DNA of 51,699 nt from positions 1 through 51,699 of the forward strand of contig JAVCDB010000113.1 in assembly GCA_030765205.1 (NCBI GenBank), in the 5' to 3' direction. Position 1 is the stretch's first letter. The number at the start of each line of letters is the position of its first letter. Both the position numbers and the translations under genes were made by a program. This document shows, in pieces, positions 1 through 51,699 of the stretch. Source of the stretch: Candidatus Aadella gelida. Its GTDB lineage: Bacteria; Omnitrophota; Gorgyraeia; Tantalellales; Tantalellaceae. The notes below the pieces were generated by a model. The model worked only from the letters and a program-made list of their open reading frames with translations, had not been told where the DNA came from and ran no database searches.

Positions 1-263
1 AGGGAATCCTCCGGGTCCAAAAGGCGGTCCGGGAAGAGGCGCGCAGATGGGCAGAGGGAATCCTCCGGGTCCAAAAGGCGGTCCGGGCAAAGGCCCTCGT
101 ATGGGAAAAGGTAATCCTCCAGGTCCAAAAGGTGCCCCAGGTAAAGGCGCTCGCATGGGAAAGGGTAATCCCCCAGGTCCAAAAGGTGGTCCCGGTAAAG
201 GCGCAAAGATGGGAAAAGGTAACCCTCCAGGTCCAAAAGGCGGTCCCGGTAAAGGCGCTAAAG
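1..263 (+). repeat. Tandem 54-bp (18-codon) coding repeat
   Basis: Recurring gggaatcctccgggtccaaaaggcggtccggg-type units in phase with the ORF. Confidence 0.8.
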
Positions 264-298
264 GTGGAGCTAAAAGAGGCGGAGGCCACAGAAAATAA
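2..298 (+). CDS. Collagen-like Gly/Pro/Lys-rich repeat protein, 5' truncated by window edge
   Basis: Frame open from base 2; tandem 18-aa units MGKGNPPGPKGGPGKGAK ending GGAKRGGGHRK. Confidence 0.7.
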   Translation, partial: GNPPGPKGGPGRGAQMGRGNPPGPKGGPGKGPRMGKGNPPGPKGAPGKGARMGKGNPPGPKGGPGKGAKMGKGNPPGPKGGPGKGAKGGAKRGGGHRK

Positions 299-839: not shown

Positions 840-915
840 TGGTGCCACGGGACAGAATTGAACCGCCGACACAGGGATTTTCAGTCCCCTGCTCTACCGA
901 CTGAGCTACCGTGGC
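840..915 (-). tRNA. tRNA-Phe (GAA), CCA encoded
   Basis: GCCACGG/CCGTGGC acceptor, anticodon loop CTGAAAA, GGTTCAATTC T-loop. Confidence 0.92.
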
Positions 916-1026
916 ACATTACATAATCTTTACATAAAAAGAACAAACGGTGTCGTGGCTTAGCCTATACTAATCTGCAAGCTAACCACGGCCCCTGTAA
1001 GCATAACAGGGGAGCTTAACACGGTG

Positions 1027-1112
1027 TCAGTCCCCTGCTCTTGGATGAGACTGCCTGTCCTCCGTAGCCCAATGATATATAATAGTTTGGCGAAGGAGGA
1101 AGCTACCGTGGC
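1027..1112 (-). pseudogene. Degenerate partial tRNA-Phe interrupted by palindromic element
   Basis: Minus strand GCCACGGTAGCT (1112-1101), then element 1100-1054, then AGAGCAGGGGACTGA (1041-1027) identical to tRNA-Phe body. Confidence 0.75.
1054..1100 (-). repeat. Palindromic AT-core element, copy 1
   Basis: TCCTCCTTCGCCAAACTATTATATATCATTGGGCTACGGAGGACAGG; arms CCTCC..GCC/GGC..GGAGG. Confidence 0.8.
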
Positions 1113-1304
1113 ACGCTGTATATCAATAACTTGATAGAGATTATATCATACGAGTAGATTTAGGCAAGATTATTTTTATAAAAGCATCACAATAAATGGA
1201 ACAAAAAATAAGAACATTCCCCCCTTTTGAGAAATATTACTATTTTTAGTGATAATATTGCAAAAAAGGTGTTTTAGTGTAAACTCTAGTAAAATAAGGA
1301 GATA

Positions 1305-2141: not shown

Positions 2142-2153
2142 GCCCGTGTAGCT
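2142..2153 (+). pseudogene. 5' fragment of a tRNA-Thr copy preceding palindromic element
   Basis: GCCCGTGTAGCT identical to first 12 nt of intact tRNA-Thr at 2264. Confidence 0.65.
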
Positions 2154-2201
2154 TCCTCCTTCGCCAACCTATTTATATATTATCTGGCTACGGCGGACAG
2201 G
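2154..2201 (+). repeat. Palindromic AT-core element, copy 2
   Basis: TCCTCCTTCGCCAACCTATTTATATATTATCTGGCTACGGCGGACAGG. Confidence 0.8.
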
Positions 2202-2263: not shown

Positions 2264-2339
2264 GCCCGTGTAGCTCAGTTGGTAGAGCAAAGCATTCGTA
2301 ATGCTTAGGTCGGAGGTTCGACTCCTCTCGCGGGCTCCA
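2264..2339 (+). tRNA. tRNA-Thr (CGT), CCA encoded
   Basis: GCCCGTG/CGCGGGC acceptor, anticodon loop TTCGTAA. Confidence 0.9.
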
Positions 2340-25001: not shown

Positions 25002-25074
25002 AGTGGATAGAGGACAGATTGCTTCGCTGCCTGCCTGCCGGTAGGCAGGCGCAGTAGGGCGAATGATGGATAGA

Positions 25075-25108
25075 AGCAGTAGCTGGGGTTTAAACCCCAG
25101 CTACTGCT
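25075..25108. repeat. GTTTAAAC-centred palindrome, copy 1 (perfect, 34 bp)
   Basis: AGCAGTAGCTGGGGTTTAAACCCCAGCTACTGCT. Confidence 0.9.
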
Positions 25109-30972: not shown

Positions 30973-31275
30973 AAAGATAGGCAAGGGTTCGAAGAGAGAC
31001 ACTGAACCTTTAATCAAGGGAGCTTGCGAGCAGGAGAGCAAGCGACTAACAAATGAAGTGGCGACTGGCCGACCGGAATCTCCGAAGTTTTGTGACGATA
31101 CGAACGTTAGTGAGGATCCAAAACAAAGCTGATCCGGAGATGAAGGCGCCGAGCTCTTGCCCGCAGTTGTAGTAACGGTCAAAAAGACAGAGACAAGAAA
31201 CGAGCAGGAGCATTATAGGACGAGCTGCCTTGCCCGCTAGTGAAGAAGAAGAGATTCATGGGAACGATTAGATTA

Positions 31276-31301
31276 GTAGCTGGGGTTTAAACCCCAGCTA
31301 C
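31276..31301. repeat. GTTTAAAC-centred palindrome, copy 2 (perfect, 26 bp)
   Basis: GTAGCTGGGGTTTAAACCCCAGCTAC. Confidence 0.9.
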
Positions 31302-31305
31302 AATT

Positions 31306-41973: not shown

Positions 41974-42029
41974 GAATATACTTTTATTTTGATGAGCCAC
42001 TTTACTGCGTACTATATACGCTATACCAC

Positions 42030-42063
42030 AGAAGTAGCTGTGGTTTAAACCCCAGCTACTTCT
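42030..42063. repeat. GTTTAAAC-centred palindrome, copy 3 (one mismatch)
   Basis: AGAAGTAGCTGTGGTTTAAACCCCAGCTACTTCT. Confidence 0.9.
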
Positions 42064-44487: not shown

Positions 44488-44503
44488 GTGCTGATCAGTG
44501 GTC

Positions 44504-44541
44504 TTATTAGTAGTCGGGGTTTAAACCCCGACTACTAATAA
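44504..44541. repeat. GTTTAAAC-centred palindrome, copy 4 (perfect, 38 bp, compensatory arms)
   Basis: TTATTAGTAGTCGGGGTTTAAACCCCGACTACTAATAA. Confidence 0.92.
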
Positions 44542-45549: not shown

Positions 45550-45727
45550 AAGAGTAAACAGTGTTAATAGACCATTGACCATGGACAATTGACTATTGTC
45601 CTTTTTAATTCGGGTATCAGAAGAAGTAGCTGGGGTTTAAACCCCAGCTACTTCTATTAGTGCGCATCGGTCCTTCTATAGTCTATGGTCAATAGTCAAT
45701 GGTCTGCTTTCTATCTTCTATCTAGGA
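45550..45727. repeat. Composite intergenic element: 7-nt periodic inverted arms around a GTTTAAAC palindrome
   Basis: atagaccattgaccatggacaattgactattg ... palindrome 45622-45655 ... cggtccttctatagtctatggtcaatagtcaatggtc. Confidence 0.8.
45622..45655. repeat. GTTTAAAC-centred palindrome, copy 5 (perfect, 34 bp)
   Basis: AGAAGTAGCTGGGGTTTAAACCCCAGCTACTTCT. Confidence 0.92.
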
Positions 45728-48730: not shown

Positions 48731-48779
48731 CGTGTCCGCCGTAGCCAGATAATATATAAATATATCGGCGAAGGAGGGA
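48731..48779 (-). repeat. Palindromic AT-core element, copy 3
   Basis: Minus CCTCCTTCGCCGATATATTTATATATTATCTGGCTACGGCGGACA, near-identical to copy 2. Confidence 0.85.
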
Positions 48780-51578: not shown

Positions 51579-51699
51579 GTGCGCCCAGCATGGGCGCTTA
51601 CTTGTCGGTGAAAGTCCGATATGGGGGTTGATAGTGCCAACCGTTAGCTTAAGACAAGGGTGTCCATCGTGAGGTGGAATCTGAAGGAAGTCGGCGGCA
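51579..51699 (+). mobile_element. Group II intron 5' end (domain I), truncated by window edge
   Basis: GTGCGCCCAGCATGGGCGC, GGTGAAAGTCCGA, CCAACCGTTAGC, AAGGGTGTCC, GGTGGAATCTGAAGGAAGTCGGCGGCA. Confidence 0.9.

Follow-up and report, generated by a model that had tools for sequence, protein, structure and literature searches.

We found that intact tRNA genes are preceded, at many isoacceptors, by a copy of their own nucleotides (nt) 1-12, a hairpin, often a few further tRNA nt, and a spacer. The tRNA-Phe locus of the window (the whole 51,699-nt stretch of Candidatus Aadella gelida DNA that was analysed) is one case of this arrangement, which recurs across several uncultured bacterial lineages. 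The arrangement is real and apparently undescribed: searches of the open-access literature found no description of a tRNA-start copy joined to a hairpin. We favour the reading, to which we assign a probability of about one half, that tRNA genes acquire REP-like hairpins by insertion near nt 12, that this is coupled to a duplication of the gene start which leaves an intact gene downstream, and that the copy is then maintained.

Copies of tRNA starts in the window genome

Upstream of the intact tRNA-Phe gene on the minus strand lies a broken tRNA-Phe copy (Table 1). It opens with GTGCCACGGTAGCT (1114-1101), in which tRNA nt 1-12 occupy 1112-1101. Behind the hairpin, CAGTC (1053-1049) equals tRNA-Phe nt 13-17, the following TCATCCA is unmatched, and AGAGCAGGGGACTGA (1041-1027) matches the tRNA body at 15/15 positions (tRNA nt 21-35). 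The first-pass annotation had described the 12-nt start, the hairpin and the resumed match, with an intact gene downstream, and all of them lie where it had placed them on the minus strand. It had further proposed a duplicated tRNA 5' region as either the site of entry of the element or the material from which it is built. The tRNA sequence behind the hairpin bears this out at tRNA-Phe, and the proposal holds generally, as four other loci (L107, L123, L137 and L237) resume for longer and other isoacceptors carry their own nt 1-12. The description 'degenerate copy' falls short, as nt 1-12 of the copy match exactly and seem to be maintained.

The 12-nt copy and the intact tRNA-Phe are separated by 185 nt. 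The spacer before the gene consists mostly of a second dispersed repeat, not of tRNA sequence; it reads ACCGTGTTA..CAGG..CCGTGGTTAGC..GCTAAGCCACGA, is related to sequences at five other sites of the genome, and is probably a separate insertion into the same broken copy.

The window holds three copies of the hairpin, as had been claimed. Besides the one at tRNA-Phe, a hairpin of the same family follows nt 12 of a tRNA-Thr copy, with the intact tRNA-Thr beginning 110 nt past the end of that copy, and a third lies away from tRNAs. On contig C22, a hairpin stands behind TAAAGTGCGCCTGTAGCT, which is identical to the start of the downstream tRNA-Arg together with its 6-nt upstream flank. There are accordingly three loci in the window genome (Phe, Thr and Arg), each with 12 nt of its own tRNA. 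Because promoter-like boxes stand upstream of both window copies, tRNA-Phe and tRNA-Thr may, judging from the sequence, be transcribed through the copy and the hairpin. An Rfam scan of the window at the gathering score returned no known RNA leader (T-box or other), only tRNAs and the start of one group II intron.

Table 1. Features of the window, with positions numbered from its first nucleotide.
Feature	Position	Strand	Details
Tandem 54-bp repeats	1-270	+
Short ORF with collagen-type repeats	47-298	+	repeats such as MGKGNPPGPKGGPGKG
Intact tRNA-Phe (GAA)	840-915	-	ARAGORN and Rfam
Second dispersed repeat	~953-1025	-	ACCGTG..GCTAAGCCACGA; start 1027/1025; relatives on contigs C68, C26, C39, C22 and C53
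Resumed broken tRNA-Phe copy	1027-1053	-	CAGTC, 7 unmatched nt, AGAGCAGGGGACTGA
REP-like imperfect hairpin, 47 nt	1054-1100	-	TCCTCCTTCGCC..GGCTACGGAGGACAGG; after tRNA nt 12
Copy of tRNA-Phe nt 1-12	1101-1112	-	GCCACGGTAGCT; identity continues upstream for 2 nt (GT, to 1114)
Promoter-like TTGCCT-16-TATAAT	1140-1167	-	upstream of tRNA-Phe copy; consensus by eye only
Promoter-like TTGAAA..TATAAA	2099-2125	+	upstream of tRNA-Thr copy; consensus by eye only
Copy of tRNA-Thr nt 1-12	2142-2153	+	GCCCGTGTAGCT
Hairpin, same family as at tRNA-Phe	2154-2201	+	after tRNA-Thr nt 12
Intact tRNA-Thr (CGT)	2264-2339	+	ARAGORN and Rfam
Near-perfect palindrome, five copies	25072-25108, 31269-31305, 42027-42063, 44503-44539, 45619-45655		AGTAGCTGGGGTTTAAACCCCAGCTACT; a further copy downstream of tRNA-Arg in L010
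Third hairpin copy	48731-48778	-	away from tRNAs
Group II intron start	51663-51699	+	Rfam group-II-D1D4-3; cut by window end

Recurrence across genomes

The tRNA gene's own 5' end is repeated upstream over at least 11 nt in 45 of 221 inspected tRNA genes. Among 185 distinct tRNAs, 44 have such an own-prefix copy, a figure that is not a prevalence, since many of the loci were selected for their hairpins; 38 of the 44 copies stop at nt 12 or 13. The same length was reached in 0/185 cases on the opposite strand and in 21/3580 (~0.6%) with the prefix of another tRNA, and the tRNA-like flanks therefore exceed chance. Within single genomes, exact own-prefix copies of 12-17 nt lie at most 300 nt upstream of 16/46 tRNAs in G036 (Peregrinibacteria; at most 7 nt in the rest), and 12-nt copies lie upstream of 3/41 tRNAs in the window genome (at most 6 nt in the rest); these genomes were not randomly drawn, G036 having been reached via a pattern match. 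In G011, a relative without hairpin matches, 0/18 tRNAs have an own-prefix copy.

GTDB species genomes were scanned with an exact pattern, which matched 30 times. In about 12 of these matches, from Patescibacteria and one Omnitrophica genome, an intact tRNA follows 86-250 nt downstream, and most share its first 12-15 nt. Matches in Devosia, Pseudonocardia and similar genomes, with neither a nearby tRNA nor a direct repeat, were discarded as chance coding matches. The strict GTAGCT form is rare in Patescibacteria (3 of 341 scanned genomes). When the hairpin was searched without the tRNA part in 12 pattern-match genomes, 82 hairpins were obtained, 26 with a tRNA within 400 nt. In 20 of the 82, a flank matches the nearby tRNA over at least 8 nt; the tRNAs include Leu, Glu, Val, Pro and Gly, and most of the cases at these five were beyond the reach of the first exact pattern.

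The fixed feature is the position, nt 12, and not the sequence. The break falls after nt 12 in tRNAs for Leu (GCCGTGGTGGCG), Glu (GGCCCCATCGTC), Gln (TGGGGAGTAGCC) and Tyr (GGGTCGGTACCG), and GTAGCT was rejected as a sequence target, since these and Cys cases break at nt 12 without it. There are also cases at the 3' end, where a tRNA-Pro (L147) and a tRNA-Gly (L133) have 13-14 nt of their own 3' end behind the hairpin.

The hairpin family

The hairpins are ~30-60 nt long and share the core CCTTCGCC..GGCTWCGG, with outer stems that are variable but paired. A covariance-model scan, run with the hairpin alone, revealed many dispersed copies: the window genome has 19 matches and two relatives have 75 and 91, with zero in several other genomes. 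The second outer stem pair is kept in 108/148 cases, versus a mean of 65.5 and a maximum of 81 after shuffling; pairing is maintained through sequence change, and the stems covary. Between loci the hairpin sequence families differ while the pairing is kept, and nearly every tRNA-start copy is followed within ~10 nt by a hairpin, whatever its family. The mean folding z-score is -1.1 after the copy versus -0.1 before it.

It is possible, though on balance doubtful, that copy and hairpin form a functional leader, a cis-acting RNA (or DNA) structure before tRNA genes that is retained because the copy can replace the tRNA's own 5' strand, or form a tRNA-like three-way junction, and would thereby control maturation or expression of the tRNA. 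The covarying stems are consistent with such a role, as are the presence of a hairpin behind nearly every copy regardless of sequence family and the complement of the copy that can be read in some tails (L094, L116, L321 and L322). However, the folding z-score is modest, the same hairpins also occur far from tRNAs, and both the spacers and the copy-to-gene distances (76-254 nt) vary widely.

Hairpins are enriched beside tRNA 5' fragments, contrary to the outcome that the first-pass annotation had named as refuting its claim. An adjacent direct repeat of at least 10 nt accompanies 22/40 hairpins within 300 nt of a tRNA, versus 4/75 elsewhere and 0 in the control; one of these four (L149) is likewise a tRNA copy, and the other 71/75 hairpins away from tRNAs have no such repeat. 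Read in reverse complement, the hairpin has GTAG (or GAAG) facing CGAA across an internal loop rather than at its foot. Y1/RAYT genes are present in 15/16 genomes, and only a few of 30 such loci have a hairpin nearby. A RAYT neighbourhood as the mobiliser is unsupported, as Y1/RAYT genes are not regularly flanked by hairpins.

Hairpins were also observed in other settings. At six loci (L049, L051, L052, L023, L026 and L047) they begin at the CCA end of a tRNA gene, with an outer stem such as CCAGCT/AGCTGG, and often a second, inverted hairpin stands behind. At L011, L016 and L017, the same hairpin, followed by a second one with a conserved TTC/TCA internal loop, lies directly before ribosome-binding sites; the next gene is by eye dnaK at L011 and chorismate-synthase-like at L016. 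A TAAAGGAG-like stretch is found on both sides of the hairpins at L011.

Anatomy of the copies

Behind the hairpin, tRNA sequence of at least 6 nt resumes in 15/45 cases, versus ~4% in the control; resumption covers nt 13-43 in L107, 17 nt (to about nt 37) in L123 and 10 nt in L137. In ~20/45 cases it does not resume. Clean interruption of the tRNA sequence, with no target duplication at the hairpin, is seen at L107 and at L337 (first unit). Identity between copy and gene extends upstream by 0-8 nt in 37/44 cases, and the inserts between the repeats measure ~60-240 nt, with no room for an integrase gene.

Such boundaries might be left by a small transposon that recognises the tRNA D arm and makes a fixed 12-bp target-site duplication, the hairpin and spacer being the whole element and the duplication rebuilding the gene. 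The exact repeats from nt 1 to nt 12 and the short upstream extension agree with this, as do two 104-nt inserts, alike by eye, in tRNA-Arg and tRNA-Thr of one genome (G027), with exact 12-nt repeats, and, elsewhere, a similarly laid out insert of 105 nt. We nevertheless consider a transposon of this kind improbable, given that the tRNA often continues from nt 13 behind the hairpin, that insert lengths cover the range stated above, that hairpins remote from tRNAs mostly have no adjacent repeat, and that no terminal inverted repeats were seen by eye (the ends of L089/L096 are TCCTCC.. and ..GTAGTTGG).

Copy-hairpin units occur in tandem at L149, L160, L348 and L381. The long (38-60 nt) duplications at these loci were rejected as the original event and represent later tandem amplification of the whole unit. 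At L160, neighbouring units have near-identical flanks and different inner hairpin sequences, and the inner stem-loop seems to have been swapped or separately inserted. The duplication does include leader sequence in L237, a near-complete tandem duplication of promoter and tRNA, and probably does so in L323 and L337. The arrangement as a whole might stem from old tandem tRNA duplications, of which the spare copy decayed and by chance gathered unrelated repeats. L237 is of this form, and the broken tRNA-Phe copy in the window holds two different repeats; but the copies share one end point, match nt 1-12 exactly and, with few exceptions, come with a hairpin, and this origin is already disfavoured and very improbable.

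A boxA-like antitermination signal in the spacer (GNTCTTT, ~20 nt before the tRNA) was dismissed, as it is also present upstream of insert-free tRNA-Arg genes and looks like ordinary tRNA leader.

Gain and loss at one orthologous tRNA-Arg

The tRNA-Arg/tRNA-Ala pair was traced in 40 genomes related to G036, and the sequence was read at ~32 of the tRNA-Arg loci. Of these, 11 have a copy differing at no more than 2 positions and 3 have a relic; the others have neither. In G030 and others the copy ends near nt 20 and is joined to a different hairpin, so that gain is recurrent; the differing insertion points and the absences point to repeated gain and loss.

Five tRNA-Arg inserts at nt 12 (the fifth, L176 in genome G035, compared by sequence alone) are only 55-72% alike, and yet every copy matches its own tRNA at 12/12 positions. 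In L323, the same C-to-T change is present at nt 5 of both the copy and the tRNA-Arg. Neutral decay would predict several mismatches, contrary to the observed identity; possible explanations are selection and conversion between the repeats. The identity of these copies within such divergent inserts, and the lineage that changed nt 5 in both places, argue for the functional leader introduced above. On the other side, conversion could keep the copies identical, and a leader of this kind is missing at most tRNAs and at ~20/32 of the orthologous tRNA-Arg genes. It is unlikely, too, that Omnitrophota- and Patescibacteria-type bacteria have a tRNA-gene-specific hairpin system that sets a hairpin and a selected, self-matching 12-nt copy of the tRNA's 5' end before the gene, the copy acting as a strand-exchange leader or decoy regulating its own tRNA.

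A model for the origin of the arrangement

In the preferred reading, insertion with coupled duplication, a hairpin would enter the tRNA gene, usually in the D arm at the junction of nt 12 and 13, for instance through the action of a single-strand transposase. Replication would then stall at the hairpin and the template switch back upstream, which would yield an interrupted copy and an intact gene. Selection for a working tRNA would allow only events that leave an intact tRNA to survive, and the 12-nt copy would later be kept identical, whether through selection or because the two repeats convert each other. We infer this order of events and the coupling of insertion to duplication; the fixed end at nt 12, the tandem amplification and, at some loci, longer copies cleanly broken by a hairpin are direct observations. 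Against this reading, the Y1/RAYT genes are not regularly flanked by hairpins and no enzyme is linked to the process. The ~20/45 cases without resumed tRNA also fit a plain 12-nt target-site duplication, and a mere by-product would not be expected to persist as an exact copy in old inserts.

Integrating elements favour tRNA genes, and those known are mainly large. Here, up to a third of the tRNA genes in a genome have their starts combined with very small hairpins at a single fixed nucleotide. The loci are a natural record of essential RNA genes surviving insertions and are relevant to how fragmented tRNA genes arose. Should the copy be under selection, it would point to tRNA control of a so far unknown kind in bacteria whose genomes are reduced. 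For annotation, tRNA-derived reads from such leaders could pass for tRNA fragments.

Comparison with known systems

DDE-type MITEs make duplications of fixed length; here, 38/44 copies measure 12 or 13 nt, yet the tRNA often resumes behind the hairpin, and the terminal inverted repeats of such elements were not seen by eye. Casposon or Cas1 integration involves a cas1-type integrase and makes 14-15-bp duplications at tRNA genes.

Dada DNA transposons are eukaryotic elements of kilobase size that encode a transposase and insert into tRNA and snRNA genes with 6-7-bp duplications (PMC3706591). They share with the present inserts a fixed insertion place inside small RNA genes and a target duplication, whereas the present inserts are bacterial, ~60-240 nt long and gene-free. 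In tRNA-targeted integrative elements (attL/attR; SSV1 in PMC3293823), a direct repeat of the tRNA end likewise restores the gene. Unlike those elements, the inserts described here have neither integrase nor cargo, and their repeat differs for each tRNA and is hence not a shared attP core.

In Caldiarchaeum subterraneum, a tRNA-Thr is disrupted at one archaeal locus by an insertion of 1.9 kb that carries a putative recombinase gene (PMC3293823). As here, the intact gene is preceded by a direct repeat, a fragment homologous to the 5' end of the tRNA; in contrast, the present inserts are ~60-240 nt long, contain no gene, and occur at many tRNAs in many bacteria. REP/BIME sequences (PMC3733652, PMC2817692) resemble the present hairpins in being short, imperfect, dispersed in many copies and sometimes arranged in inverted pairs, and the hairpin that interrupts a copy, like them, has no duplication of its own. 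Unlike REP/BIME with RAYT (Y1), these hairpins have no proven GTAG/CGTC foot tag and no regular RAYT neighbour, and they are strongly associated with tRNA genes and with copies of tRNA ends.
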